A DNA stretch of 56,457 bases. Source: Cylindrodendrum hubeiense. Taxonomy: Eukaryota > Ascomycota > Sordariomycetes > Hypocreales > Nectriaceae. The position numbers and the translations under genes are program-made. This document shows, piece after piece, positions 5,701 through 49,169 of this stretch. The first letter of the stretch is position 1. Each line of letters opens with the position of its first letter. Below the pieces are notes generated by a model, which did not search any database, was not told the origin of the DNA, and saw only the letters and a list, made by a program, of their open reading frames with translations. The stretch is from positions 1 through 56,457 of the forward strand of contig JAANBB010000262.1 of NCBI GenBank assembly GCA_014621425.1, written 5' to 3'.

Positions 5701-6837
5701 GCAGCGAACTCGACCCTGGCCTGGATCCCCGCCAGGTTCGAGCTCTCGACGTCTACTGGTCCCAGCTCCGTCTGCTCTACTCTCCTTTCGAGGCTCACCT
5801 TGCTGGTCCCGACCCCGAGGTGTACGAGCACGAGATTCCTGGTGGCCAGCTGACCAACATGATGTTCCAGGCCTCTCAGCTAGGTCTCGGATCTCAGTGG
5901 CTTGAGACCAAGAAGGCGTACGAGCACGCCAACGAACTCCTTGGCGACATTGTTAAGGTTACCCCCACCTCCAAGGTCGTCGGCGACCTTGCTCAGTTCA
6001 TGGTTTCCAACGGCCTCTCTACTGAGGATGTCAAGGCTCGTGCCTCTGAGCTCGATTTCCCTGGCTCCGTCCTCGAGTTCCTCGAGGGTATGATGGGTCA
6101 GCCCTTCGGTGGCTTCCCTGAGCCCCTGCGCTCCGATGCCCTCCGTGGCCGACGCAAGCTTGATAAGCGCCCCGGTCTGTTCCTCGACCCTGTCGACTTC
6201 TCCAAGGTCAAGCGCGAGCTTGGTAAGAAGTTCGGTGCCCCTGTCACCGAGTGCGATATTGCCTCGCACGTCATGTACCCCAAGGTCTTTGAGGACTACA
6301 AGAACTTCGTCAAGCAGTACGGCGATCTTTCCGTTCTGCCAACTCGATACTTCCTCACCCGACCTGAGATTGGCGAGGAGTTCAATGTCGAGCTCGAGAA
6401 GGGCAAGGTCCTCATCCTGAAGCTCCTCGCTGTCGGTCCCCTCTCTGAGAACACCGGCCAGCGTGAGGTCTTCTTCGAGATGAACGGAGAGGTCCGACAG
6501 GTCACCGTCGTCGACAAGCACGCTGCTGTTGAGAACATCAGCCGACCCAAGGCTGATGCTAACGACTCCAGCCAGGTCGGCGCTCCCATGTCTGGTGTTC
6601 TGGTTGAGCTCCGAGTCCACGAGGGCTCTGAGGTTAAGAAGGGTGACCCTCTTGCCGTTCTTTCCGCCATGAAGATGGTAAGTTTCTAGTCTTATTCCTC
6701 ACCTGTTTCATTACTAACCACTTTCACAGGAAATGGTCATCTCCGCACCCCACAGCGGAAAGGTTGCCAGCGTCCAGGTTCGCGAGGGTGACTCCGTCGA
6801 CGGCTCAGACTTGGTCTGCCGAATTGAGAAGGCTTAA
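2732..6837 (+). CDS. pyc: Pyruvate carboxylase, cytosolic type, nine exons
   Basis: This enzyme carboxylates pyruvate to oxaloacetate using ATP, bicarbonate and biotin, feeding the TCA cycle and gluconeogenesis. Exons by splice signals: 2732-2864, 2965-2985, 3043-3050, 3130-3141, 3207-3276, 3335-3454, 3512-3573, 3633-6677, 6730-6837. They join in frame to 1192 residues, the usual size for fungal pyruvate carboxylases. The order is biotin carboxylase (VANRGEIPIR start, ATP-grasp loop AYGGGGRGMRVV, FIEINPRIQVEHTITE), then carboxyltransferase (MDTTWRDAHQSLLATR near 4946), then a C-terminal biotinyl domain with AMKM just before the last intron (biotin lysine about residue 1156). The N-terminus (MAAPQQPLTFNDVFEDEE) is acidic and not a mitochondrial presequence, so a cytosolic enzyme is expected. 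The start is the first ATG in good context (caaaATGGcc). Exons of 21, 8 and 12 nt in a row are unusual. The last intron has a TACTAAC-type branch site. Confidence 0.97.
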
Positions 6838-7475
6838 TTGTCTTTTACCTAAAAAGCGAGCATGAGATACCGCGTTGTGTTGTTGACTTAACAAGGGAAG
6901 GGGATGGACTGGTTACGGCTTGGGTTAAATTGCTGTATAATCCCACTGGAAGTTGGCTGCTGGGACAGAGCAATGGTTTTGGCGCGAGGGAACGATGTCC
7001 TTTTATTATTGGTATTGCTTAAGGACTTCAAATACAAGTACCTACAAATTTATATGTCATTGAGAAGAATTTTCAGTCTGTGACTTCTGTTTCGTTCAAG
7101 ATCCATGTGGTGAGGAAAGTGGAGGAAGTGTGTGGTGGGTTCATGATTGGTACTAAGAATTAGGGGTTAAAGGGCCTAGACGCACTAAACATTAGGGACT
7201 ACATGTACTTAGAATTAGGGGTCAAGTGCTCCTATTTAGGGGCTGGTTGAATTAGGTGCAATTCCCGATGGTTCGGAAAGAAAAAGAAAAAAATGTATTT
7301 TGACTATATGCAGCTTTCGCAGACCTCATTTAAGGTGTGACCGCAACTATTGACTCTCTTACACAGTGATCTGATTGCAATGTCCTGTTGCCTTCATCAT
7401 CCTTTCTTGTACCTCGATGTAACCCCGTCAAAACCTGTAAACCAGCTTTATAGGTGAAAATCAGGAAAGGGACCT
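6838..7475. other. Intergenic: carboxylase 3' flank and TTAGGGG-like words
   Basis: After the carboxylase stop there is an AT-rich 3' UTR-like stretch with no gene. Between 7158 and 7256 the plus strand carries aattaggggttaa, attagggac, aattaggggtcaa, atttaggggctgg and aattagg. These are telomere-like TTAGGG(G) words in a loose array. The complementary CCCCTAA words occur at 9936-10037, so the two arrays are in opposite orientation around pseudogene A'. Confidence 0.55.
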
Positions 7476-8742
7476 TTACACCTTCGTGAGCTCGATGCAA
7501 TGGCTTGTCCGTGGGTCTTGGACCTGCATTTTCATGTCTCCCATTAAAGCCCAAGTCTGCACCTTGCGAAGTGCATTAATGAGGCATTGTTCCGTTCCCT
7601 GGTGTGTACTGTCTGTTGAATACCAGACCCGTGTTTTGACTTTCTGTTTTCTCATATACTGGAAGAGGTTTCTTTGGAGCCCACGCAGGGCTGTTGTAAT
7701 GCGTGTGTCTGGGGTGATGTCTTCTTTCGGATCGGGGTCGTAGATGACCAGGTGTTTCCCACTGGATTCGTCTTGGATGATTGCAATAGTGTAGCAACAC
7801 CAAGGTTCAGTTTCCCAGTCCTTTTGGTGCTGAACCCAGTTGATTCTTTCTGCGCTGAAGAAGCCGATCCAGGTATGTTTTCCTATTTTTGGAGCTTTGT
7901 AGAAATCGACGATAGTATCTCGATGGGATGCATCGGGGAGATAATCAGCCCAATTGGCTTTGTGCTTCGCGTGATTGAAAGAAATTGCCCTTGGATGAAC
8001 GTAGGGGGCTTGTGGGAAGTCGGAGAATTGTTTGAGGAAGCCAAGGAAGTCTTCACCAAGTGATTGGGGGTCATTTGGCGGCTCAATAAGCGGAGTTGCC
8101 TGGGGTTCCATCATCGCCTGCCGATTGCGGTGTGTCCGGCCAAATCGTGCAAAAGATGATTGTATAGGCTCTTCGAGGTAGCTGATTCCAATGAGTGGAT
8201 CTCTTTTCTTCTCGAAGTGTGAGTTAGTTGAGAAATCGCGGAGTTACAGTGTGGCGTAGAAAGTATTTGGGGTTTCGACTTGAGCTTCTTACCTTCCCAA
8301 GCAGCTGTCGCCCTTTTTGCATCGACCCTTGGGTAGAAGACGCGGTCCTTGGATAAGTCGGCTCCCCAGAGCTCCGACAGTTCCTCGCGGATTGGTTGTA
8401 GTGTTGCGTGGTTGGGCGTGAAGTAGCTTGCAACTTCAAACCAATACGGGAACCAGAGGACTTTCAGTCAGCCAGCATTCCCCTTTAGCTTCTTGTAAGC
8501 CTCAAGCGAGCTAGGGGCAGTCTCCAGGCGTTTCCAAGCACCGTCGTAGATGTTAGCTGCCAGTTGCTCGTGCTGGACCTCTGGTATGTTGAGTTGAATG
8601 TGTCGACTAGGCCCCATGCCCGTGTAAGTTCTTCATTTGACAGGTGGGAGAGGTCCCAGTTCGCCTTGGCCAGTTCGCCAGGTTGTCGTGTTAACAGATT
8701 TGGTCGGCGCGTGGCAGTCCTTGTCGGCACAGTGTCAGATAT
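7476..8742 (-). pseudogene. Copy A': broken member of family A with a protease-like C-terminal part
   Basis: The first half is homologous to gene A at 14637: shared words include SSLEAYKKL, VLWFPYWFEVASYFTPNH and TLQPIREELSE. It is damaged. The expected start reads ATA at 8742-8740 (ATA TCT GAC ACT GTG), the frame shifts near 8590 by a small deletion relative to gene A, and a TGA at 8470-8468 replaces a CGA of gene A. Downstream a 212-codon frame (8114-7476) stays open. A GTAAGA intron could join the two halves in frame (ending near 8198), which would give one ancestral protein. The open tail has WCCYTIAII, then HLVIYDPD, then HQGTEQC, an order of W, D, Q, C that recalls Ulp1/adenain-type cysteine proteases. 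The catalytic His usually just before the Trp is Pro here. The protease reading is tentative; the pseudogene reading is firm. Confidence 0.75.
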
Positions 8743-8754
8743 TTTGAAGTGAGA

Positions 8755-9185
8755 TTTTCACAAAAGGCTCGTTGATGAAAAAGATGAGTTGGTCAGGCGG
8801 CCTTTGTGGGGGGGGGAGGTTGTGATTTATAGGTGAGCGCCACCCCAGAAGCTCGGGAGTGATTGCGATTGACAATGAATCACTGCGAGGACAACTTAAA
8901 ACAAAGAGAAACTGGGCACGGGAGTGATTGCGAGACAACGAATCTCTGCGAGGAAAACTTGTAGCACAAACCGGGCACGGGGGTGATTGCGATTGACAAT
9001 GAATCACTGCGAGGAAAACTTACAGCAAACAGAAACCCGGCACGCTGCTGCGGTGAGGTGGGTAACACGCATTTGACAAACGCGTCACTGGTCCTGTGCG
9101 CAGGACCAAACAACACAACACCTTGGATCGGCTCTTGAAGATGAGCAAATGGATATTAAAAGTTTTCCCCGTACCAAGACAAGCG
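8755..9185 (-). promoter_or_regulatory. Promoter cassette, copy 1 (upstream of A')
   Basis: This stretch matches 12505-12800 along most of its length. Exact shared words include tttataggtgagcgcca (8826-8842), caatgaatcactgcgagg and aacaccttggatcggctctt. On the minus strand the first reads GGCGCTCACCTATAAA, a plausible TATA box about 90-100 bases upstream of the A' reading frame. This copy has an internal triplication not present in copy 2. The two copies lie in the same orientation relative to their genes, so they look like a promoter region duplicated with its gene family. Long terminal repeats are an alternative reading. Confidence 0.8.
8854..9042. repeat. Three tandem ~60-bp units inside promoter cassette copy 1
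   Basis: Units start at 8854, 8919 and 8978. Each begins with cggg(a/g)gtgattgcga, continues with a form of caatgaatcactgcgagg and ends in an aaac...gg(g)ca motif. The middle unit is slightly shorter (gattgcgagacaacgaatc). Cassette copy 2 upstream of gene B has a single unit, so the triplication is specific to this copy. Confidence 0.85.
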
Positions 9186-9935
9186 TTGAGTTTCTACAGA
9201 CTTGGTTAGATAGGTAAGATAGTGTATGCAAAATACACAAATAAATAGGTGGGCACCCGTGGAAGCGTGAGTTCCCGGTCCTCGGTCCGCCCTCAGGTTC
9301 ATGCCTGACCACGCGAGTTATGGAAGATCCGAGAGCCGCTTGTATTCAGACTCTTCGGTTTGTTAGGTATGGGCATGGAGCGGCCTCGCCCTGGCCCCCG
9401 TCATGCTCGTCCAATTTCCACCGGCCGTTCTTTGCTCCAGTTCTGTTTAGTGAGAATCCACCTCCTGTGTCCGCCCCGGTCTAGCTAACCTGGTCACAGC
9501 ACAAGAATGTTCTGATCAACTACCAGCCATCACAGGAATGAACTTGTGTCCCCCAGCCCGTGTCCCTCACGATATACTATCTACATAGATCAAGAGCCCG
9601 CAAGCCTATATTTAGATGGTGATTTGTACCTCTTGTCATCTGCAATTAATTAAGCAGCCATGGAAATCTAGTAGTGGTATACAAAGGACGTACTGCTATG
9701 TTCAGACCTTGTGAAAAGTAGGTACTCAATTTCGGGTTCAATTTATCAATAGCCCACTCATCCTCATCTCCCTTTCCAGAAGAGTGCTGCTATCATCACG
9801 CACATTTATTGCTATCCACACTGATCACGTACCAGATAAATCGAACAGTGATACTTTTCCATATTTGATTCGAATCTATGAACGAACTCCAATTCTTTTG
9901 TAAATTAGAATGAATTGCTCATAACTCAAGAACAC
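9186..9935. other. Intergenic between A' promoter and gene B
   Basis: I find no gene here. All frames are broken by frequent stops. The sequence is moderately AT-rich, especially 9640-9930. It separates the promoter cassette of A' from the minisatellite at the 3' end of gene B. Confidence 0.5.
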
Positions 9936-10037
9936 CCCCCTAATCTTTAACACCTTATCCCCTAATCTATAACCCCCTATCCCCTAATCTTTATCCCCTT
10001 ATCCCCTAATCTTTATCCCCTTATCCCCTAACCTTTA
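9936..10037. repeat. 22-bp minisatellite, five units, running into the stop codon of gene B
   Basis: Units of tcccctaatctttatcccct plus ta lie at 9936-9957, 9958-9979, 9980-10001 and 10002-10023, with a partial fifth from 10024. The third and fourth units are identical. The fifth (tcccctaacctttagtgcac) contains the gene B stop codon, so the repeat begins inside the coding end. The unit contains CCCCTAA, the complement of a telomere-like TTAGGGG word. Confidence 0.93.
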
Positions 10038-12371
10038 GTGCACCTTATTCTCCGACTTCCGCTTCATTGGCTTTCCAAATTTCGCCTCCCGTCCCTTTGG
10101 TGGGGCGCCCATCGGTTTAGGAGTGCTCTTGCTGCTTGGTGTTTCACTCTGTCTCGAGGGTTTAGGCGTATCCCGGTTGAATGTAAGTCTGCTCGATGTC
10201 GGTGTCGGCGTCGGTGAAGCTGTGGGCCGGTTGAATTCAAAATCTTCCATGGGCACTCTTGGCCGTTCTACGGTCGAGATCTCCTCCTTGATTGTGATTT
10301 TGACCTTTGGCATAAGATGATCCACGATTTGTTTAAGTTCCGAGGGGTAAAACTTCCGTGCGGTAGTACGAGCCTGATCTGACTCGTCAACTCGTGCTTC
10401 CAACTTCTTGAAAGTTGCCGTTGTCTCTTTCTGTTGGATACAAAGGTCCTTTATCTTGTCAGCTGCCTTGGAAAGGACTTCACTGAACTCATCCTCATTC
10501 TGGCTGATCTTGCCACTGAGTTTCTCGAAGGCAGCTTTGAGCGCGGCCTTGAAAGTCTGTGGTTCGTCCTTGGCACTCTCACTACCAAGTCTATTTTCGA
10601 CCTCGGTAATGCGAGACTGTAACCTCTTAACTTCTCTTTCAACTGTGGCAGCAATAGAGGCGGCGTTTGAAGCAATAGAATCGGCGTTGTTTTTAGATCC
10701 GAACCCAGATCCTGCACCTACTCCAAGCTGTGTAAACTCGCCGGGAAGACAGATCAGACTTAAATGTGGCAGTCTGAGAGTTGAAATTGATGCGGAGATG
10801 CTTGGGTTTACTGTGCCATAAGCGGTAGTGAATCGAGTGGCCAAGACTTCGTGATGGGGTGGGACTTTATTAGTCCAGTGGTTCGATGTTCTTCGGTTCT
10901 CGATATAACCACCTGATAGAAAAGCACGTTTGGCTCCCTGGAGGCTGACCTTGACTCTGCGGACGACACTAGCCTCTGAAGAGTTGGGGATCACACTACC
11001 ATCGGGCAGGCCCTGTCTTTCCGCTAATTCTTTGTAGTGTCCGTAGAGCGTTCCTCTAGCATGATTGTAAAGCACGCTCAGTGGGTTGTTACTGTCCGGC
11101 TCTTGGTCAATAGTAAACTGTAAGCCATATACCTGGAACTCTCCTCGCATTCGGTAGATAGCTCCATGGTATGACTTTTCCTTGAGGAGTTCATTATCGC
11201 ATACCTCATCTTCGGATTCGTCTTCCTCCTCCTCGTCACTGACTCTGTCTTTGTAGATGGACTTCAACTCCCGCTCAGCCTTGCGCTTTGCCTTTCCACC
11301 GATAGACTTTTCCGGGTTACTGAAGTTGGTATTGATGAGATTGCCCGGGAGTTGGATGGCTTTGCCCTTTGCGGTGGTCGTTTCAGCATCCATTTGTTCA
11401 TCTAGATCCTCATCAAGAGTGTCTCCATCCACTGCCCGGAGGAATTCTTCATCGGTGCCATGCCCAGCTCCATCTGCAACTCCTCCAGTGATATTATCGT
11501 CACTCCCAGGGACAAGGTTAGTGGGATCCTCGATCAGGGCTGAAGTTTCGGCGTCGTCAGTCATGTCTTCTTCTGAGTCACTGTCGTGTACTTCGGATTC
11601 GTATTCGTTGTCCGTGGTTCCGCTTCCTGCTCGATAGATAAAGCTCGATAATTTCCAGTATTGGTCACAAAAGACCTTCTCGGCGCTGGTCTTCTCGTCC
11701 GCGTTACTGATTAAATCATGTACATGCGAAATTGCCTGGCATAGGTAACGTCTTGAGTGAGCTGAGGCACACTGTCGGATCAATTCCTTGGGGTTGTCAA
11801 GATTGGCCCAGACCTCGCTCTCCCAGGCGTCCCTTTTAGCTTCGTCTTTGTCAAGTTTCTTCTTCCAGGTGAGGCGTCTCAGCCCTTTCGGTCGTTTCCC
11901 TCTCCAGTGATCGTGCTCGATTAAGTGAAGGGGCGGGGGAGCCAGGTTTGTGTCGGGCCCGGCGTCGGGACTGTAGTTGCTAGCTATCAGGTCAAAGGTA
12001 TCGTAGCCGGCTTGTGTTTGGCAGTAGAATAATCTTTCTTGTGGTGTGAGTTGTCGGGTGATAGCTTCAGAACCGAGTTCTTCAGCAACCTCGAGAAAGG
12101 CTTGGGTAGCGGTCCTTCTATCGTTCGGTTTGGCCGCTTCGGTTATCGGTTCACGTAATGCGTACAAAGGGTTTGGGAGAAGCCGGTAAGTTCGGTCCTT
12201 CCACCAGTCGCGCTCACGTCTCTCTTTGTCGTTTTCGGACAACCACTGTTCGACTGAGATATGGTCCGGTCGAAAGCCCTTCCAGCGGTGCCAACTCCGA
12301 GGTGTATTCGGAATATCGGTAGTTGCCAGCCTGTCAATGAAGTCGTCGCGGTCAGTCCTAACGGCGCAGCG
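10035..12371 (-). CDS. Gene B: acidic, coiled-coil hypothetical protein of the accessory block; no clear start codon
   Basis: A frame of 778 codons is open between a TGA at 12374-12372 and the stop at 10037-10035. I do not recognise the protein. It starts with a Trp/Arg-rich part (RSWHRWKGFRPDHISVEQW, ERDWWKDRTYRLL). Acidic low-complexity stretches follow (DSDSEEDMTDDAE; DEEEEDESEDE), then a hydrophobic segment (STLRLPHLSLICLPGEF), a long coiled coil (SNAASIAATVEREVKRLQSR and onwards) and a basic Ser/Thr/Pro tail. No ATG lies in frame near the beginning. Protein-like sequence continues upstream of the TGA to about 12450, so either a 5' exon is spliced on or the 5' end has decayed. The upstream DNA shares the promoter cassette of A'. 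A structural (Gag- or capsid-like) role is possible but nothing shows it. Confidence 0.7.
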   Translation of the reverse strand, partial: RCAVRTDRDDFIDRLATTDIPNTPRSWHRWKGFRPDHISVEQWLSENDKERRERDWWKDRTYRLLPNPLYALREPITEAAKPNDRRTATQAFLEVAEELGSEAITRQLTPQERLFYCQTQAGYDTFDLIASNYSPDAGPDTNLAPPPLHLIEHDHWRGKRPKGLRRLTWKKKLDKDEAKRDAWESEVWANLDNPKELIRQCASAHSRRYLCQAISHVHDLISNADEKTSAEKVFCDQYWKLSSFIYRAGSGTTDNEYESEVHDSDSEEDMTDDAETSALIEDPTNLVPGSDDNITGGVADGAGHGTDEEFLRAVDGDTLDEDLDEQMDAETTTAKGKAIQLPGNLINTNFSNPEKSIGGKAKRKAERELKSIYKDRVSDEEEEDESEDEVCDNELLKEKSYHGAIYRMRGEFQVYGLQFTIDQEPDSNNPLSVLYNHARGTLYGHYKELAERQGLPDGSVIPNSSEASVVRRVKVSLQGAKRAFLSGGYIENRRTSNHWTNKVPPHHEVLATRFTTAYGTVNPSISASISTLRLPHLSLICLPGEFTQLGVGAGSGFGSKNNADSIASNAASIAATVEREVKRLQSRITEVENRLGSESAKDEPQTFKAALKAAFEKLSGKISQNEDEFSEVLSKAADKIKDLCIQQKETTATFKKLEARVDESDQARTTARKFYPSELKQIVDHLMPKVKITIKEEISTVERPRVPMEDFEFNRPTASPTPTPTSSRLTFNRDTPKPSRQSETPSSKSTPKPMGAPPKGREAKFGKPMKRKSENKVH

Positions 12372-12504
12372 TCAGTACTGGCGGCGCAGTGGCAAAACCG
12401 GAGGATGTGTTACTTTGGTGTAGAATGATTCTGACGGCGCAGTGTTGGTAATGATGGCGCGATGTTGAAACCTGAGAAGTGAAGTTTTTCAAGAAAAAAA
12501 GCCG

Positions 12505-12800
12505 GGGGAAAAAAGATTTCGTTGATGAAGAAGTTCAGTTGGCCGGGCGGTCTCGGTGGGTGAGAGAGATGTGTTTATAGGTGAGCGCCATTGGAGACTC
12601 GAGAGTGACTGCGGTTGGCAATGAATCACTGCGAGGGCAACTTAAACAAACAGAAACCTGGCACGCCGCGGCGGTGAGGTACGCATTTGACAAACGCGAC
12701 ACCGGTCCTGCGCGCGGGACTAAACAATACAACACCTTGGATCGGCTCTTAAAGATGAGCGACCGAAGATTACAATTTTCCCCTTAACAAGACAAACGTT
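12505..12800 (-). promoter_or_regulatory. Promoter cassette, copy 2 (upstream of gene B)
   Basis: It matches copy 1 at 8755-9185, with a minus-strand TATA-like GGCGCTCACCTATAAA at 12590-12574, gacaaacgcg(a/t)cac and aacaccttggatcggctctt. Differences between the copies are mostly single-base, many of them transitions. Just inside the cassette, on the gene side, a run of T and C precedes cttcacttctcag, which would make a good 3' splice site. An intron in the 5' part of gene B is therefore possible. Confidence 0.8.
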
Positions 12801-13282
12801 GTAAGTAGGGTAGTGTATATATAAATAAAGAATATTATTATTCGCACAACCTTTGATCGCATGACCCATTTTCGCCCCCAATTTCGCATCTTCCCTTCGT
12901 CACACCAAAATAGAGTATAGGTCAGGAGACACAATTAACTTGAAGTGAATTCAATCAACATCAACACATTCCAACAGCACGCAAGTCTGGCAACGGGAAA
13001 CTCGTTCAAAAAAACGCATCTCCAATAGCTCCATGTGAAAAATAGCATTTCTGTCGCTCCAGCTGTTATTCCGGCTGTGACAACCGCCCTGGCTGCGTGG
13101 CCGGGATGACATACTCCACGGCTGAAGTCGGTGCCGCCGACGCTCTACCCCCTCCCTCGTCCTCCTCATGTTTCTCTGCCCCTAGTATTTCTATGACCTC
13201 GGGGTTTTGGCATCGACATTCGTTGGTTTGGTCTCGGGCTGCCCTGTGTCTTGAGCTCGGGTTGTGATAGTGTACGCCGTAC

Positions 13283-13505
13283 GCTTGGGTTGAGTCGCAA
13301 CAGCTTTGATAGTAAAAATGTCGAGTTTGTCGCCAGTTGTTCTTAGAAAGGAAGGTCCTGTACTTTTCCAGCGCAGCCTCCTCGCTGTCTTCCTTCTCCT
13401 TTTTCAGTGGTTTCGTAAACTTTTCGGCTTGGGTTTAGTCGCAGCAGCTCAGAGTAAAATTGTCCAGTTCGTTGCCGGTTGTTCTTAGAGGGAAAAGGTC
13501 CAGGC
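13283..13505. repeat. Direct duplication of ~75 bp inside the decayed B copy
   Basis: The segments 13283-13360 and 13428-13505 share gcttgggtt(g/t)agtcgca(a/g)cagct, then t(c/t)g(a/c)(g/c)agtt(t/c)gt(c/t)gcc(a/g)gttgttcttag, then a ggtcc word. The offset is about 145 bp. Differences between the two are largely transitions. Confidence 0.75.
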
Positions 13506-13945
13506 CTGTGTTTGTGTCTTCCACTGCGGAGGCCTTTCTTGACTTCTTTGGAGGTAGGGTCGACACCTCTCTGGCTCTATTTATTTTCTGTGCCGGTTTA
13601 TCGCCAAATCTCCTCATTCCAGCACCTTCCTGGTTTTATTCCAGTTTTCCAACATGGATATCAACATCCTTCAGCTTTGTTTCGACTGTTGCCGCGATCG
13701 ATGCGGTCATTGATGCTGCGTTGCTGAGATGGCGTCAGTATACATCCTACATACAGCGGATGGCGTCTGCGTAGGTATGATCCTTCGCAGGCTTCTAGTC
13801 TATAGTCGACGGGGAAGACGATCCCCTCTACTAAAAGAATCACCAGCCGGCTCCGAGCTTGACGACCCTTCGCGGGACAGACGGGTCCCTGGCAGTCGTA
13901 GTCATCACCATTACCGAAAATGGCACTGCTGTCATAAGTCACCAT
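13283..13945 (-). pseudogene. Decayed second copy of the gene B coiled-coil region
   Basis: On the minus strand, around 13745-13655, the frame reads NAASMTASIAATVETKLKDV. This parallels SNAASIAATVEREVKRLQSR of gene B, and it then runs into a stop. Before it, a LGAGW segment recalls LGVGAGSGF in gene B, in a frame broken by several stops. After it, short Lys/Arg-rich frames continue to about 13280. The same strand and order as gene B, at 60-70% similarity by eye, point to an old tandem copy rather than a functional gene. An internal duplication is listed separately. Confidence 0.6.
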
Positions 13946-14497
13946 CAGCTTAATAAATGAATTATGCTTCGACTTGGCATCTTCTGATTCTAACTGAGTT
14001 AGCTATCCTGTAGGTGGCATTCTGACCTGACGCTCTAGGATGAAGTGACCTCTTATCATTATATTCAAAGTCAATTCGCATGGCTGCAAACGTTGACTTC
14101 CGGCCTACTACTTCTCAATGGTAATGCAGCCGACTTAGTGCGAAAAGTTGAATGCCTGACCACTGGTAAAAGAAATCTCGATGCCTGAACAGGCAACTCG
14201 GGGACGATTGGCTACTACTCCAGTAGCCACTACATATTTGGTAGCAAACAAGGAGAACAGATGAAACATCAGCGTGGATGAGCCGATAACACGCTAGGCA
14301 GAACCATAAACTCCAATTTATAAACAGCAACTCAGGTTTCATCACAACGACAAAGACATGACATCAACCACGAAAGACATGTCAGTAGAAGCACGATACC
14401 TCTGCTTCAATCATTACATTCACTTGGACTGTCGCAACAACTGATTGAGATCCTTACATGCCCCGATTTATCACCACTGCCGACTGCGACTACTACT

Positions 14498-14600
14498 GAC
14501 TGCGAGCCGTTACACTTTGACCCAACATCAACACCACAACTGCGAGCCAGTACACTCTGATCCAACATCGACACCACGACTGCGAGTCACTATAGGAAAC
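14498..14600. repeat. 40-bp direct repeats just upstream of gene A
   Basis: Units start at 14498, 14538 and 14578: (g/a)actgcgag(c/t)c, then tacact(t/c)tga(c/t)ccaacatc, then (a/g)acaccac. The third is partial and reaches to within 40 bases of the gene A start codon. The ACTGCGAG word also occurs in the promoter cassettes of A' and B (atcactgcgagg), so this could be a promoter element shared by the family. Confidence 0.85.
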
Positions 14601-14636
14601 GCGATATCACATCCTCATCTACCAGAGGACGTCGAG

Positions 14637-15956
14637 ATGTCATCTCACCCAGGTCCTTTGCCGCGACCACCTGGCGAACTGGGCATGGAGCACTTGGACC
14701 TCTCCCAGGCGTCAGATCCAGAATTTGCAAGGGCACAAGGCCTGATCAACGCATTCGACTCCATCAAGGCCAAAATTCCGGAGATCCAGCGGGAACAACT
14801 CGCAGCTTACATCTGCGATGGGAGTTGGAAACGCTTGGCGGCTGCCCCCAGCTCGCTTGAGGCGTATAAGAAGCTCCGGGGGAATGCTGGTCGACGCAAG
14901 GTCCTATGGTTCCCCTATTGGTTTGAAGTCGCGAGCTACTTCACGCCAAATCATCCGACACTTCAACCAATTCGTGAGGAGCTGTCCGAGATCTGGGGGG
15001 TCGACTTGCCCAAGGACCGGGTCCACTACCCATGGGGGGTCGACGCAAAACGGGCGAGATCTGCTTGGGATGGCAAGAAATACAAGCCAAAGTTCCTCAA
15101 ACCAGACGTTAGCCAGTCGACATCAAGTCGGAGTTTCACACCGATCAACAAGCCAGAGACGCCAACTCCACAACGGAGCGCCAAGAAGAAGGTCAAATTC
15201 AACTTAACAACAGCCAGTAGTCCGACACCAGATAAACCGCCCGCGTCAGCCGACACACCTGTACTCCCACAGATCTCATCAACCGACCACACTGAACACC
15301 AAGGACACGCCTCGACGGAGAAGGCCGCGGGGTCGCCGACACTAACAGAGGCAAAATTGACGAAGCAGGACTGGCAGTTTGGCTTTGCTTCGCTTCGCGA
15401 CCGCGTCGACAAAATAAAGAACCTACATTCTACCCCAACTGAGAAGACCGAGTTGAGTGACCTTCCACCATCGCCTTTTATTACAGGACACCGCGGGAGA
15501 GGAGAATGGTCACAGATGTCGCCGTCGGTGACAACGGAGGACGGGATTATCCCAGCTCGCAAGCGCCCGCGTCCCCACGAGACAGGATCCTTACATATGG
15601 AAGACATCGAACGACGTCTAGTGACCATATAGAAGCGACATATGACGGCAGAACATGTGGAGGGCAAGATCAGCGAAATTGGAGCGAAAGTCGACGCCAC
15701 AGTATCGAGATTGATACAAGTCGAAGAAGACGTCGATAATGGGCCAGGAAGCTTTTGCGAACTTGAGACACGACTTACGCAGGTCGAAGCGATGACCAAG
15801 TCGGCAGACGACAAAGCGACTGCAGCGTTGGCGTTAGCAAAGTCGGCAAACGAGAAAGCGACCGCAGCTGTTAATGTCGCAAACACTGCAGATGACAAGG
15901 CGACCAAAGCTCTCGATTTGGCAAAGTCAATAATAGACGCGCTGGAGGGGCGGTAG
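14637..15956 (+). pseudogene. Gene A: family A protein with one in-frame stop (439 codons)
   Basis: ATG 14637 (cgagATGtca) opens a frame that runs to a TAG at 15630-15632 and continues in the same frame to a TAG at 15954-15956. The N-terminal ~150 residues form the domain shared with A' (DGSWKRLAAAPSSLEAYKKL, VLWFPYWFEVASYFTPNH). A Pro/Ser/Thr-rich linker follows, and after the internal stop a coiled coil with three 14-residue repeats (KSADDKATAALALA, KSANEKATAAVNVA, NTADDKATKALDLA). The part after the stop is clearly protein-like, so the stop is either a CAG-to-TAG mutation, a readthrough site, or sits in an unseen intron. As it stands a 331-residue protein could be made. I do not know its function. 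Confidence 0.7.
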
Positions 15957-16090
15957 AAGACGGGAGGTCACCAAAGACAGTCAACCTTTTGGAAGGGGCA
16001 AATGGGATACGGAGAAAGGAGGTCATGACCTGACGGGGTCACAGGGTCGCGACGGTGACGTGAGGAGTCACACCAGGTACACACAATCAT

Positions 16091-16181
16091 ATTAGCTCTT
16101 GACATTAGCTCTCGACATTGGCTCCCGACATTGGCTCTCGACATTGGCTCTCAACATTAGCTCTAAAAATTAGCTCTCAAC
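16091..16181. repeat. 13-bp minisatellite, seven units, downstream of gene A
   Basis: Seven consecutive 13-mers of the form att(a/g)gctct(c/t)(g/a)ac run from 16091 to 16181 without a break. It lies 135 bases after the second gene A stop. Together with the 22-bp array at the 3' end of gene B it makes a pattern of 3' minisatellites in this gene family. Confidence 0.93.
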
Positions 16182-17947
16182 ACATTGCTTAGGTAGTCAG
16201 GGCCGTGAAAGCTATTGCAAAATGGAATTAATTGGTCAGACGCACACTGTAGATGCCTATCAACAACATAATGGTCCACCCGACCTCGATACCGCACCGT
16301 CAGGACTGACCATGACACTTCCTCGACTGTTATGATCTCTTTGACCTAATAGCCAGAAACTACACCTCCCAGCAGCACTCCCGACTGAAAGGAGGAGGAA
16401 GCCGGCTGCCAAGCCTACTAAGGGAATCGACGGACTTGAGAATATATTCGATTAAGATCTTGGCCGATTAAAGCACAAATGGGGAGGGAGACTCGGATAC
16501 CCACAGGTCGGATCCAATGCTCGGAAGGGGATATCGTGTACGGAGTATTAAAGATGAGGATTGCTACTCACGCACTAAACCACACGACTCCATTTTCCTC
16601 GGCGCCAGCCACCGCAGCCGCTATTGCACACACAGTAGGTCAATCCCTCATAGCTTCCTACCTCTTTTCCTGTTATTTTAAACGCGCCGTTGTTGTCATC
16701 GCCATTTCCGACCCAGTTGGGGCTCTCGATAGCGGACGATGAAGAGGGGGCAGAGTGTTGACAGTCAGTCAGTCAGCCAGTCAGTCAGGAATATGTTGGA
16801 TCATGGGGGGCGCAGGCAGTCTTGGCGGAGTTCGAAACCTGGTCTCAAGACGAGTATCCGTTCCCCGACGACACATTCCGGGGAATGACTGTGAGCGAGG
16901 TACCGTGCTCGTACTACTTGGCACATAAACACCATCTTCTCAACCCAGGACTCTAGAACATAATATCAGCCCTCACAACTATAGGGTAGGTATCTTAACT
17001 AGAACTACACAATTAACCATTGCGTACCCGAGATTTCTATTGTAATTTCTATTGAGTATTGCTGTTTTTACACATGCAGGTTGCTATTAGTACACAGATA
17101 CCTAAATCCTAGCTACGTCATGTGCATATCGTTGACCTTCGCAGTTCGGTAGGTCCCACGATCGTCAAGCAGTGCGACAGTGAAGAGGCGAGCTACATCA
17201 GAATGACAACTAGCGTAGAAAATAAAGAAGGAAGGAAATAGCAATCAAAGGCTAGAATAGACGTAATAAATAGAGGCCGGATTAACCGGTTTCTGTTTAC
17301 ACCCTGCGGAGGGAATCTAAGACATGAGTACTCTAATTATTGAAGACCAAGGAGCGCTGGCGTTGACCGATGGGAGAAATCACTGTAACCACGGTATTCA
17401 CATAGGGTAGCAAAGACAGGTTAAGATAAAGACACCATTGATTCCAAGAGGGCAAATTGTTTCTAACTAACAGGTTCATTTTTCATTTCCGTTCCTATCC
17501 TTGACACTACCCTACGTAAAAATTGTGAAGAAAGCTAAATTGGTATCCCGGTCGTCACATCCCGTAAGAGAACATGTTTGAGTGTGGTGGTATAACATCA
17601 GAGCAAAAACCGTCGTAACCAAAAGATGAATAACAACCCAGTTCCTCCTATAAAATCAAATAAATCCCATATGAACAGCTGCTCATCTCGAGTCCCATCA
17701 TCATGTCGCTATGCGTGCATCCCGCGAGAGAGCCGTAGTTTGAGTATCTCAATGTCTGTCGTTCAAGTTCTGAAAAAGTGCAAACACCGAAACCCAAAAA
17801 GAGAAACATGCAGACATAAAGAAAAAAGAAAGTCGTTAGAAGTGAGGTTGTTGGCGGTCCCATGATAGGACCGTCCAATAAAGAATGTGAGTACACAAGT
17901 GATACTCGAAACTGAAAGAGTGCGAGAGGAATTGAATAGTGGAGTGT
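16182..17947. other. Intergenic between gene A and the SAM-PH gene
   Basis: I see no gene. A short (cagt)n tract lies at 16757-16790. The stretch 17000-17900 is AT-rich and probably contains the 3' UTR of the SAM-PH gene, which ends at 17948 on the minus strand. No tRNA A/B box pair was found. Confidence 0.5.
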
Positions 17948-20549
17948 TTAGATCATGTTGCCGTTGACGCTGATCTCGAAGCCCTCGCCCTTCTGTCGGA
18001 GAGCCTTAGCCAGCATGAGCTCGCGCATCCAGTCGATGCGGTCGTCACGGCCCTTGACAGCAAAGTGATGAGTCTTGCCGGTGCCATTGACACCCTCGGC
18101 GGAGTTGGCACTGGCGGCATTAATGGCAGCGCTCTCGCGCTTGCGGAGCCGGGCGGTGTTCTTGTCCTGAGGGACGAGCTGGAAGCTGAATGCGCCGGGG
18201 TCGCTCTTCTCACGGTTGTGAGTGAGGTGGACAGCTTTGAAAGCGGCACTGAGCTTGGAGGAGGAGGCGGCGCTGGAGCATGCAATGGCGTAGTCGTCGA
18301 TGTCGACGTACTCAAGCGTGCGGTCCAGCTCACTGACGTCCTTGTGCATGTTGAGACGGGTGCCCTTGAGGGTAAAGTATCCGTCGTTCCACTCATGACG
18401 GAGCATGCGCGTCTTGCGCTTCTTCATGGGGCCCTGGTGGGTGACGCCATTGGCAAGATCAGCCGTGGGGGCAGGGGCCAATTCGGCAGCCGAAGGCATG
18501 GGGGGAATGGCCTTCTCGAAGTTGGTACGCTCGACAGGAGACCAAGGGTAGTTGACGCGAGGAGGGGCCTGGAGGGGCTGCTGGGATTGCTGGGAACGGA
18601 CAGAGGCTCGGGGAGACTTGGGAGAGGGAGCCTTGGGAGCAGGGCGGTGGACGAGAGTAGGCTTGTTCTCCGTCAGGGCGGGGAGGACGGGGAACGAGGG
18701 GCGGCGGGCAGAGGCGCGAGACTGGCAACGGGGAGGGGCAGGGTTGCCGCGGATGGGGGATGTGCGATAGTTCATGTCAGGAGGCACCGACTGGGAGTTA
18801 TCGCGAGCCACAGGGCCGATGGGGACAGCGGTGACTGGGACATCGACCTCCGAGAAGGGCGTGCCGAAGCGGTAGGGGTTCCGGGGCGTCTCCAGGTCGG
18901 GAGACATAGGGTCGGCCTTGTCCATGCTGTAGGGGTGGAAGTCGTTGTGTTGCACCGGTGGCTGCTGCTGTGCCTGCTCATAAGCCTGCTGTGGAGGAGG
19001 AACCGTCGCAGCGCGCGGTGGCTGCACCACGCGTGGAGGCGGAGGCTTGTTGGGGATGGACAGCCGGGGCAGGCGGCGCAGGTTGTGGTGAGGGACTTGG
19101 ACGCCCGGGTTGGCCTGGAAGGGAGGTGTGGGAGGGACATCGTTGCAGTCGTCGCGGAGCTCTTGGTGCTGGAAGTTCAAGAACTGGCGAACATTGTCCT
19201 GGGGATCCCTTGACTGGAAGCTGCGGAGAGTCGCCTCTTGGAGGTACTGGAACGCAGGCAGAGTGCCGGGTCCGAGGACGTCGGAGGATGCGACGACCGA
19301 AGGCACGGCATCCGAGACGGGACGCAGGGTCTCGATGGGGTCAATGGCTCGGGCCGTGTCCGGGTTGCCGGCGTCGCCAATCATGACGGTGCCGAAGGTG
19401 CTCAGGTCGATATTGGGGTGCTCCTTTCTGAACGCTCGCATGAGGGCCTGCTGCTTCTTCCACTTGGTGCAGTTCTCGCCCTTGGAGCATGAATGGGGCT
19501 TCGGGATGACCTGCTCGATGCCGATGATGGACACCGACTCCATCGGGGTGATGTCGTCGTTGTGCTTGTTCTTCCTCTGCCTTCGCTTGCTGCTCTTGCG
19601 GCGGGTGAGGCCTTGGTCGTCCTGCTTCTTCCGCGTCTCCCTCTTGGCTTCCCGGCTTGGTGCATCCTCAATGGGTGTCTCTGGGCGAGGGGATGTGGGT
19701 CGGCTGTCCCTCAACGCCTGGATCTGGTGCCAGACCTTGGTCCGGATGCCGAAGGACTGAATGTCGAGTTCCCGGAGGTCCTCAAACTTCAAAGTGATTA
19801 AGATGGCGCCGTTGATGTCATTCTCCATAAATCGGTCAGCCATTGAGAGCTCAATGCCAGCATTGAGCATAGACTGGGCGACCATCTCCGGGGTCCAATC
19901 TGCGAGGTTCGATGTGTCGAGATCCTCATATGTGTACTGAAAGGGGCTGTTGCGACGGGGCGCTTGCGGTTGGACAAGGAGGTCAGCAATGCCTCGGGCG
20001 GGCTTGGAGGTAATGGGTGAGAGAGTCAAGACAACGTCTTCGTCGAAGGAGCTGGCTGTCGAGCTGCGGAACAGGTGCGGCCCTCGGGGACCCTCAACCT
20101 GCTTGGGGGAGTACTGGTAGTATCCCTCTTCCTGGCTCCGGCTGGATCTCGGGGTGGGCACCTCATCGTATGAAGAGACGGTAGTAAAACTGGGTTGTCC
20201 CGACTGCGGATGCAATGTCAGCAGGTCGACTTACAGCAGCTTATAGTCAGTCATGCAGAACGTACCGATTGCACACTCAGGCGCGGAGAGTTGTCGTCTT
20301 CGACGTCGCTGAGGATCTCCTCTTCCTCCTCGTCCCAATCAGTGTCCATAAACTCGGTTGCCACTGATTGTCGGTGCAGTTGTGATTCGTTCTTGAGGCT
20401 GAAGAAGGTATCCCGGGGGATGGGCTTCTGTCGCATTTCTTGGTATGTGCGGCGCTGCTCGCCGGTGTTATAGTATGAGTATTCCTGTGAATAGGGTTAG
20501 TTCGTCCCGAGAGCTGCAATGCGGTGGGTTCTGGACTGAGACATACCAT
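17948..20549 (-). CDS. SAM and PH domain scaffold protein, three exons
   Basis: Exon 1 is just the start codon (20549-20547), followed by a GTATGT donor, a CTAAC branch site and a CACAG acceptor. Exon 2 is 20484-20266; a second 62-nt intron (GTACGT donor) is removed; exon 3 is 20203-17948. All joins are phase 0 and give 825 residues beginning MEYSYYNTGEQRRTYQEM. A SAM domain lies at about residues 175-239 (LADWTPEMVAQSMLNAGIEL onwards). A long Pro/Ser-rich, probably disordered middle follows, with possible SH3-binding PPPPR/PPPQ runs. A C-terminal PH domain is at about 668-805 (RMLRHEWNDGYFTLKGTRLN; RIDWMRELMLAKAL). The layout resembles fungal Boi/Pob1-type polarity scaffolds but without an SH3 domain. 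A role in membrane-linked polarity or signalling is inferred. Confidence 0.9.
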
Positions 20550-46788: not shown

Positions 46789-49152
46789 CTAAATATTCAG
46801 ACATATTACGAGAGCTCCCAAGGGATACCACATGATGAGAATAAAATAACAAACAACAAGGTCCATGAAAAGGAAACCCCAACAAATCCGTCGCTCCAGT
46901 TCATCGTCACACTCGATCCGGCCCATCCTCAATGCCAACCGCCCCAGAGCTTCATTCCATCGCCTCGAGGGCTCTGGAGCTGCCTGATGACTCCGATCCA
47001 CTGCTTTCTCTTCCTCTCTCGTCCTTGGGTCAGCTGCTTCCTCGGTTGACTCTATTTCTTCAGTTTCATCATCGACGTTGTGCCAGGCTTGCTCGTCCAC
47101 CTGCCATTCAGCTTCAAGGACCCTCGCACCTTGCTCATTTATTGTGTCATCATGCTCTACCATATAACCACACACCGGCTCGGTATTCTCTTCTTCCTCA
47201 ACCACTGAGTCCTTCTCGGTTTCCAATGCCGTGCCACTGAGTAAATATCCCCCCCTAGAAGCCTCCGTAGTTCGAGTCACTTGGTCACCCGTTGCCATGG
47301 CTTGGTCAGACTTCGCCGTTTGCTTCGGTGACTCAAAGTCCATGTCCGCGTGTGAGATCCGTATCTCAAACAATTCCGCAACCCCTTCCAGCCATTTGTC
47401 TGCATCCTCCATTGCTTTTATCTCGCTGGGAAGTAATGCACCTCGCTTTGGGGGGGAAGCATGGGGGCTCATCGTACTGACGAGCTTGAACTCACTCCGC
47501 GGTACTCCGTCCTTGTAGAAATTTATATTCCTGGGGCTGGCATTTCCGCAGTCGTTCTGCAGTTTGCGCACAATGCCTTCCGAACTCCACATCCCGGAAA
47601 CCGACGCCCTAGCCTTGTCGGAGAGCTCTCCATTCTCGTAGGCGTCGCGATGCTCGACGAACCGTGTCCATCGATTCACTGAATCGGTAACCTTTTGTAT
47701 CGTAGATTGAAACCACTCGATGTGCCCTGTGCCGCAATCAGGGCATTTTTTAAGATATCGTCGATCGTGAAAGAGATCTGCATGGGCCAATTGCTCTACC
47801 CGACGTGCTCCTACAAAGTGGCTCTCACTTTCTGCGACCAGCAACACATCCAAACAACATTTTGACCGGTATCGTTCATACACCCGTTTTTCCGTAAAAC
47901 CTACCTTGAACATATCTCGACTCCTGAGTTGAAGGACGTAGATAATTCCAGCTTTCATTTCTTTGCGACTGAAGGGTTTTTCAATGAGTGACCATATTCG
48001 GAACTTAGTTACTGGATCCCTACAGGGCTCAAAGAAAGGCGTTGTGTTCACTATAGGCGATGTATTCACTTCAGGCGTTGTGTCCACTTCAGGCGTTGCG
48101 TTCACTTCAGGCGTTGCGTCGACAGACAGTTTTCGTGGTTCCCCGGAGTGATCGGGTTGATGGTGTTTGTCTAAATTCTTTATGGTGCTCTTTTCCGGTT
48201 TGTTATTGCTGACACTCTCCTTTGTGCTGTAAAGGGGGCGTTTCTGAGCCCTCTTCATAGATGGTGATTCATACTCAGATAGATAGCCCTTCTCATCCCT
48301 GGAGCTAGAGATAGAAAGAGGCGTCCCGGGCGTACCCACCGAGAGGGCAGGAGAAGAAGAGAAAACGGAATCGGCATCAGATTCAGAATATGGAGAGCTT
48401 GCGGCACTGTCGTGGCATGGCATATATTCGCGGTATCGGTTACGGATTGGTGTTTTGGGAGCAGGAATGTCATCGATTTGTTTTGTTTCGGCTTTCTCAC
48501 TGTCACCTGTTTCCTCAAATGGCGCCTCGTTCTCGTTGTTTGTCGAAGTATCGTTGGCCGACTGATCCTTTGATCCAACAGATTGATCGTTCTCGGTGTT
48601 GCGTGTGCTGGTCCTGTCATTTTCTTCCCTGTTCTCGTTTTGGTTCGGAATCCAAACCCAGCGGTGCAGTTTCTCAATCGCTGTGCCCTTGTGATGAAGG
48701 CAATGTGTCCGGGAGACTAGCTCTTCGATTGGACCAAAGTCACGTAATACCGACCGGTAAGGTGAGTTTCGAAGACTGGCTTTACGTTGGTAGGTTTGTA
48801 AAAACAGGAGAAGCTGCCCCCGGCTGGAGGTGATTTCGCGTTGAGAAAGCTGCGGGTGGTCGAATGTGCACTGGGCGTCCGCCTCGTTTGGCCCGCAACA
48901 GCGGTTTTGAGGCGTGAAATCCTCGATCTTGGATTGGATTCGTTTGATCAGATTGTCTTTGAACACGCCAAGGTGCGCGTTCTCGTCGGATTCGATTAAC
49001 GGAAACATTTTGGAAATCGAAGAACAGGAATCACCTCCACGAATCTCACGCCCGTCGGTTTTCTCGGAGAGAGTGTCTTGCAGACACGATTCTCCGGGGA
49101 TGGGATATTTTGTACATTTATTTCCCCCTGGTCTGGCGGAGCATCTTTCCAA
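46789..49152 (-). CDS. T5orf172 (GIY-YIG-like) domain protein with C-terminal membrane anchor
   Basis: The frame is open for about 790 codons. Numbered from a TTG at 49152, the T5orf172 domain is at about 400-490: GIIYVLQLRSRDMFKVGFT, then RRVEQLAHADLF, then GHIEWF. It belongs to the GIY-YIG nuclease superfamily, widespread in fungi and in phages and eukaryotic DNA viruses. Four cysteines near 467-476 (KKCPDCGTGH and before) may bind a metal. The N-terminus has CSARPGGNKC and CCGPNEADAQC. The C-terminus has an acidic stretch and a hydrophobic segment (GFLFMDLVVCYFILIMWYPL) predicting a tail anchor. No ATG begins this frame: it is closed by a TGA near 49165 just before a possible acceptor (tgagccag), so a 5' exon, perhaps starting at ATG 49289, is likely. 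The start is therefore uncertain. Nuclease activity is inferred from the family only. Confidence 0.82.
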   Translation of the reverse strand: MERCSARPGGNKCTKYPIPGESCLQDTLSEKTDGREIRGGDSCSSISKMFPLIESDENAHLGVFKDNLIKRIQSKIEDFTPQNRCCGPNEADAQCTFDHPQLSQREITSSRGQLLLFLQTYQRKASLRNSPYRSVLRDFGPIEELVSRTHCLHHKGTAIEKLHRWVWIPNQNENREENDRTSTRNTENDQSVGSKDQSANDTSTNNENEAPFEETGDSEKAETKQIDDIPAPKTPIRNRYREYMPCHDSAASSPYSESDADSVFSSSPALSVGTPGTPLSISSSRDEKGYLSEYESPSMKRAQKRPLYSTKESVSNNKPEKSTIKNLDKHHQPDHSGEPRKLSVDATPEVNATPEVDTTPEVNTSPIVNTTPFFEPCRDPVTKFRIWSLIEKPFSRKEMKAGIIYVLQLRSRDMFKVGFTEKRVYERYRSKCCLDVLLVAESESHFVGARRVEQLAHADLFHDRRYLKKCPDCGTGHIEWFQSTIQKVTDSVNRWTRFVEHRDAYENGELSDKARASVSGMWSSEGIVRKLQNDCGNASPRNINFYKDGVPRSEFKLVSTMSPHASPPKRGALLPSEIKAMEDADKWLEGVAELFEIRISHADMDFESPKQTAKSDQAMATGDQVTRTTEASRGGYLLSGTALETEKDSVVEEEENTEPVCGYMVEHDDTINEQGARVLEAEWQVDEQAWHNVDDETEEIESTEEAADPRTREEEKAVDRSHQAAPEPSRRWNEALGRLALRMGRIECDDELERRICWGFLFMDLVVCYFILIMWYPLGALVICLNI
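48031..48120 (-). repeat. 18-bp coding repeat (TPEVN-type) in the T5orf172 gene
   Basis: Five units of 18 bp encode DATPEV, NATPEV, DTTPEV, NTSPIV and NTTPFF. The plus-strand core is cacttcaggcgttg. It sits in the disordered linker before the catalytic-type domain and is a likely source of length variation between strains. Confidence 0.85.
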
Positions 49153-49169
49153 AAGGCTGGCTCACAGGG

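Follow-up and report, generated by a model that had tools for sequence, protein, structure and literature searches.

Ilyonectria and Dactylonectria are close relatives of Cylindrodendrum, and their proteins include the nearest described matches to a gene block of Cylindrodendrum hubeiense (Nectriaceae). The block lies on contig JAANBB010000262.1 (C182 among the 798 contigs of the 47.5-Mb genome); the window analysed here is the 56,457-nucleotide stretch of that contig, and its positions are used throughout. An original prediction, made from the letters alone, had placed four units in a row there (A', B, a decayed B and A) and proposed them as an undescribed multi-copy gene family. The closest relative of A is BKA56DRAFT_618194 of Ilyonectria sp. 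MPI-CAGE-AT-0026 (517 aa; 43% identity, E 6e-53 in the protein database), which is longer than A on both sides and has a C-terminus not significantly like the coil of A. A shorter type (255-287 aa), whose members are well conserved among themselves, is represented by G7Z17_g4857, annotated on contig C712 of the same genome, and by BGZ61DRAFT_479132 and B0J13DRAFT_616674 (Ilyonectria/Dactylonectria); the aligned FPYWF/FPHWF domain places all three in the same family as A. Compared with this C712 type, A is longer, has a basic Pro/Ser-rich middle and carries a stop ahead of its coil.

Parts of the block also recall described domains and elements. The tail of A' resembles peptidase C48 (PF02902) only in a pattern of residues noted by eye and in a low-confidence order of strands and helices; it differs in that a profile test is negative and the window holds no C48 match. 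A segment between B and the decayed unit resembles miniature inverted-repeat transposable elements (MITEs) in being dispersed and in having terminal inverted repeats in other copies, and differs in that only its left terminal repeat is recognisable in the window. A literature search found no paper on the five locus tags of these genes or on Nectriaceae coiled-coil orphan genes, and for Ilyonectria lineage-specific genes only a Metarhizium study surfaced.

We conclude that the block is probably a local birth-and-death cluster of two lineage-restricted families, A and B, with dispersed copies. We observe the two families and their extra copies, past constraint on the A domain, a local duplication of A, and an upstream region common to A' and B; we also observe damage, with a frameshift and a stop in A', a TAG that precedes the coil of A, and two TAGs in the B copy on contig C420. 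What emerges is two concrete undescribed protein families, with a better-conserved anchor member of the G7Z17_g4857 type and copies that turn over fast, and a small test case of fungal orphan genes duplicating, exchanging upstream regions and dying. The block provides no evidence for a new mobile or selfish element.

A duplicated domain that diverged under constraint

A self-comparison of 6500-17000 aligned A (14649-15091, plus strand) with A' (8703-8274, minus strand) at 76% identity over 443 bp (E 6e-92), confirming the common N-terminal domain of the original prediction. Family A was defined by six proteins of our set (P0004, P0005 and P0007-P0010), and its domain motif, FP[YH]WF and then P.H..LQ.I, is found both in their alignment and in the A/A' matches. 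Between A and A' the domain has a nonsynonymous rate (dN) of 0.168 and a synonymous rate (dS) of 0.639 (141/142 codons in three ungapped blocks). The resulting dN/dS of 0.26 indicates that the bulk of their divergence arose under constraint; the A domain has thus been constrained in the past.

The tail of A' is a different matter. Of 100 shuffled versions of the block, 1 had an open frame of at least 255 codons, the length of the tail, and 7 had one of at least 212 codons. Since this length is near chance, we do not count the tail as a proven gene and are unsure that it is one. It has no relative elsewhere in the genome, none at or above the Pfam cut-off, none in the PDB and none in NCBIfam at E 0.01, and a pattern search confirmed no relative among viral or prokaryote contigs. 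The original prediction had seen a possible protease in it. A profile built from the C48 domains of the same genome scored the tail at 11.0, below the mean of 60 shuffles (12.9; maximum 21.4), and the positive control passed at 37.7; a Pfam scan of the window proteins gave no C48 match. We therefore rejected peptidase C48 for the tail, and the suggestion of a protease was not upheld. The AATTAGGGG words 3' of A', which resemble the array after B, are weak, with equally many one-mismatch matches in 5 of 100 window shuffles.

The damage raises the question of whether the block is mostly debris, with only B and the copies on C712, C79 and C374 being genes, and with A, A' and the remnant of a second B being pseudogenes. 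The frameshift and stop of A', the TAG before the A coil, the scrap left of the remnant and the near-chance frame of the A' tail would all be expected of debris. What speaks against it is A itself, whose stop-to-stop frame of 395 codons (331 from the ATG) encloses the conserved domain, whereas the longest open reading frame among 100 block shuffles was 267 codons. Splicing around the TAG of A is conceivable. We regard the debris reading as possible but tentative. It overlaps with the birth-and-death reading, and the probabilities of our readings do not sum to one.

Gene B and its upstream region

B is an intact open frame of 778 codons and corresponds at 99% over the full length to G7Z17_g9301 of C. 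hubeiense (785 aa). The region upstream of it matches that of A' in two pairs, 83% identical over 211 columns (8978-9188 and 12600-12801; E 1e-50) and 81% identical over 152 columns (8769-8920 and 12519-12665; E 2e-30), the common DNA measuring 280-420 bp. The promoter region attributed to both genes is thereby supported as upstream DNA homology, and this pairing, like that of A with A', is significant by alignment. Given the upstream match to B and the domain match to A, A' joins a B-type upstream region to an A-type domain. In the genome, further matches to the upstream DNA (8690-10040) are confined to the block. As predicted, B and A each have their own 3' minisatellite (with units of 22 and 13 bp).

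The 8-mer ACTGCGAG occurs nine times in the window, six of them upstream of A', B and A (8882, 9006, 12628, 14499, 14539 and 14579), mostly in tandem repeats. As a family-wide cis motif this word was rejected, being local to the block.

The decayed B of the original prediction stood only in part. A 35-residue coiled-coil scrap matched a three-sequence B profile at 11.3 bits (E 0.009), against 2.5 for the best of 200 shuffles read in six frames each. In a single-sequence alignment to B it scored 52, a score reached by 0 of 200 shuffles (maximum 51). Its scores against the other B copies were reached by 5 of 200 shuffles (C420) and, in that frame, by 112 of 200 (C374). The best DNA alignment of the remnant to B scored 48, where the highest of 60 shuffles scored 47, and fell in a different part of B. 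Because the scrap alone matches B and the DNA alignment falls elsewhere, nothing else in the remnant can be shown to be B.

Dispersed copies and relatives in other genera

We sought further copies by tblastn-type searches of the same genome, and these extended both families beyond the block, in keeping with a multi-copy family. For A, there is the copy on C712 (38% identity, E 5e-14) and a weak one on C79 (29%, E 0.02 with the C712 query and 0.015 in reverse; blastp 8e-5 in a small set), which lacks the exact FPYWF motif. For B, there are copies on C420 (31%, E 2e-42; two in-frame TAGs) and C374 (31%, E 1e-4), and a weak remnant with stops on C794 (E 0.004). Querying the genome with the C79 and C374 proteins yielded nothing more. 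The B core and its adjoining coiled coil are present in B and in the C420 and C374 copies; the remnant in the window has the coil only. By eye, the A and B domains seemed similar, and we rejected their common origin in one superfamily, the comparison by hhalign not being significant (probability 0.3%, E 0.19, from 4 and 3 sequences).

Two side observations concern repeats at these copies. The coil of the C79 protein contains a 57-bp (19-residue) tandem repeat (L038 5171-5380), from which differences in length are likely to arise. Near the C420 copy of B, at a distance of about 1.5 kb, are a 95-bp and a 9/18-bp minisatellite (L012 3089-3451 and 3507-3626), the latter rich in TAGGGT.

Outside the genome, the database search requires common 5-residue words and may miss distant relatives. 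With the C712 domain it listed four proteins of 29 candidates: G7Z17_g4857 itself and three at 67-77% identity, including proteins of Ilyonectria robusta and Dactylonectria estremocensis. For B, no outside relative was found among the 7986 candidates sharing most words, in a search that excluded proteins below about 430 aa and hence the sizes of the C420 and C374 copies. No Fusarium protein was among the matches listed with A, B or the C712 domain. Having counterparts of comparable length in other genera, the C712 copy looks like a case of vertical inheritance.

Dispersed copies on other contigs, together with the 3'-end minisatellites and the MITE-like repeat inside the block, might instead mark a mobile element or cargo region, that is, a transposon with unrecognised machinery whose proteins are A and B. 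The original prediction had named such an element, or a self/non-self or selfish system, and had itself noted that no mobility enzyme was visible. Pfam agreed on the latter point, with no transposase, integrase or reverse transcriptase domain in A, B, the A' tail, the C712, C79, C420 and C374 copies or the Ilyonectria proteins. As proteins the dispersed copies are 29-42% identical, those of A type and those of B type sit on separate contigs with no partner by blastp in the surrounding 7-10 kb, and the upstream DNA is confined to the block, as noted above. Among the 25 longest of 47 inverted-repeat pairs in 6841-17950, the sole long ones are the A/A' blocks, and a 13-nt pair at 7418/16031 is no better than other short pairs. 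We consider a mobile element unlikely.

The MITE-like repeat itself is found on many contigs. Its ~465 bp recur on seven others (L039 4765-5133, L045 4875-5255, several on L041, also L044, L042, L043 and L040), with several pieces on C363. Terminal inverted repeats with the pattern GAGTATTGCTATTCGCAC stand at both ends of the copy on C42 and at one end of several others, as judged from the alignment. With up to two mismatches, GAGTATTGCTATTCGCAC has 192 matches genome-wide, against 0 for a reversed control. Facing pairs 0.2-0.5 kb apart occur on at least eight contigs (C52, C57, C65, C187, C223, C269, C312 and C431), going by the positions of the motif. Terminal inverted repeats and many copies thus characterise the repeat family, and the window copy has the left end only; this end has three mismatches in the 19-base motif form, a match also found in 4 of 100 window shuffles. 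The segment is an ordinary MITE-type relic, which accounts for part of what had been called decayed B, and it is the one mobile feature found. No link is visible between its many copies elsewhere and A or B.

Coiled coils and domain-library matches

We counted heptad windows with a home-made procedure and compared each count with the maximum of 200 shuffles. The counts exceeded these maxima in the C712 protein (28 against 18), its I. robusta relative (25 against 19), the C79 protein (72 against 50), B (53 against 27) and the C420 and C374 copies of B (24 against 18 and 29 against 25), and marginally in the A coil (52 against 51); the B count covers the whole protein, segment 206-239 included. 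Most of the measured members therefore appear, by this count, to carry a heptad-periodic stretch C-terminal to the conserved domain, as in the C712, I. robusta, C79, B, C420 and C374 proteins. In family A, the C-terminal coil is present in the two C712-type proteins tested (G7Z17_g4857 and the I. robusta protein) and in C79 but not in P0005, the 517-aa Ilyonectria protein; in A, the coil frame follows the TAG.

No scanned protein exceeded the curated cut-off of any family library that has one, and none of the 8 proteins compared with NCBIfam had a match at E 0.01. The sub-threshold matches lie in the coils: Apolipoprotein (Pfam, 9e-4), PbeC and ZorA (PADLOC, 4e-4 and 0.06) and a tail-fibre family (PHROGs, 0.004) in the B coil, PD-T4-9_B (PADLOC, 0.02) in C79, and phrog_12397 (0.001) in the C712 coil. 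We read these matches as coil composition, Cnn_1N (discussed below) being the sole lead worth testing.

These data bear on two other origins. In a selfish or self/non-self system, such as a killer or an incompatibility system, A and B would be partners in conflict; fast divergence, clustering, the common A'/B upstream region and the patchy recovery of A, with one outside protein, would fit this. Pfam gave no toxin, NLR (nucleotide-binding, leucine-rich repeat), kinase, nuclease or membrane domain above cut-off, PADLOC matches are confined to coil segments (best 4e-4), the A domain was constrained in the past, and A itself has a premature stop. We find such a system very unlikely. A relic of viral origin would consist of endogenised structural proteins, an idea that draws on the orphan status, acidic stretches and coils of the proteins and on the PHROG matches (E 0.001-0.004) that fall in the coils of B and of the C712 protein. 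IMG/VR relatives were confirmed for 0 of 56 pattern stretches of family A, 0 of 1 of the A' tail and 0 of 447 of B, the B patterns being short and partly acidic, and the C712 relatives retain a similar length in other genera. A viral relic is most improbable. We rejected viral or prokaryotic origin, with no relatives confirmed, the prokaryote comparison covering the A' tail only.

A model for the proteins and its difficulties

On the birth-and-death reading, the proteins would be nuclear or nucleus-associated oligomers. The coil may assemble the protein, as its sequence would suggest, and the folded domain might bind a fast-changing partner. Segmental duplications, in which upstream regions are swapped, would add copies, and nonsense and frameshift changes would remove them.

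Several results weigh against this model. The case for a nuclear location comes from basic runs alone, which we interpret as resembling nuclear localisation signals in A, B and the C374 copy. Structure models were poor, with a mean predicted local distance difference test score of 38 and 43 (the second all-helical), so that no fold backs any function. For A as annotated the count is 1 heptad window, where shuffles gave as many as 14, and for the 517-aa Ilyonectria protein it is 6, where they gave up to 19; B and C79 have heptad segments outside the C-terminal coil as well. Compared with the C-terminus of the Ilyonectria protein, the A coil shows no likeness (59 of 500 shuffles reach the score), nor does it when compared with the C712-type C-termini (122 and 465 of 500); its likeness to the B coil is mild (9 of 500). 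The word ACTGCGAG lies upstream of one of four dispersed copies, that on C420, and neither it nor B-type 3' words were found near the C712, C79 and C374 genes; lacking at most dispersed copies, these words are local. Finally, Cnn_1N (PF07989, centrosomin N-terminal motif 1) has a role in microtubule-organising proteins, so that the nearest named motif hints at microtubule organisation rather than a nuclear role. It matches the coils of three C712-type relatives, P0009, P0008 and P0010 (E 7e-6, 0.008 and 0.012), the best at 26.6 bits, below the curated cut-off of 28.5; the P0009 match is also precomputed. The C712 protein has no match to it at E 1, and none was found in A or B by Pfam. The match may be a microtubule-organising lead or mere coil composition.

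In a bolder version, A and B would be interacting partners in a new fungal conflict or recognition system confined to Cylindrocarpon-like Nectriaceae. A would be a folded sensor domain on a coil of variable length, and B its large nuclear coiled-coil partner; A' and B would stand under one upstream control region, and copies would be turned over by duplication and nonsense. We consider this highly doubtful, and a birth-and-death cluster remains our preferred reading.

Setting of the block

Pyruvate carboxylase (3618 to about 6840, Pfam PYC_OADA) flanks the block on one side and a SAM-domain gene (17951-20230, minus strand) on the other; the features of the block are collected in Table 1. The interval 6500-17000 has no similarity to the remaining window at E 0.01 (blastn), and 6800-17900 has no Rfam match at gathering thresholds. 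Repeat-induced point mutation (RIP) raises TpA/ApT and lowers (CpA+TpG)/(ApC+GpT). In 1-kb windows starting within 7001-16001 the RIP composite index ranges from -0.69 to -0.01, and the signature is absent; we rejected both a RIP-silenced repeat and RIP as the source of the stops. Foreign origin by low G+C was also rejected, the block having 44-54% per kb, not unusual against the 51.81% given for the genome in a table of PMC11433043.

Table 1. Features of the block, in window coordinates
Feature	Position	Strand	Remarks
TTAGGGG-type words 3' of A'	7158..7258	+	2 exact and 2 one-mismatch AATTAGGGG
A' tail	7479..8243	-	255-codon open frame; matches only itself in genome
A' N-terminal domain	8274..8703	-	Homologous to A; deletion frameshift and in-frame TGA
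A' upstream region common to B	8769..9188	-	Expanded by ~60-bp tandem repeat at 8854-9030
22-bp minisatellite, 3' end of B	9937..10037	.	Tandem-repeat scan
Gene B main exon (G7Z17_g9301, 785 aa)	10038..12371	-	N-terminal part without found relative, acidic stretches, family core, coiled coil, basic tail
B coiled coil, about residues 554-670	10383..10733	-	Heptad window count
B family core, residues 411-561	10710..11162	-	39% identity with C420 copy
B upstream region common to A'	12519..12801	-	Self-comparison
Decayed MITE-like dispersed repeat	12830..13294	+	Left terminal repeat 12830-12848; right unrecognisable
B-type coiled-coil scrap (weak)	13624..13728	-	35 residues; profile match
40-bp tandem repeat upstream of A	14499..14586	+	Contains ACTGCGAG words, also in common A'/B upstream region
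Gene A reading frame	14637..15632	+	331 aa, ATG 14637, TAG 15630-15632; family domain about 14676-15032
Open frame in line with A, 3' of TAG	15633..15953	+	107 codons, heptad-like, 14-residue repeats
13-bp minisatellite 3' of A	16091..16182	.	Tandem-repeat scan

Elsewhere in the window, a 790-aa open frame at 46792-49161 has a T5orf172 domain (PF10544, E 8e-10).

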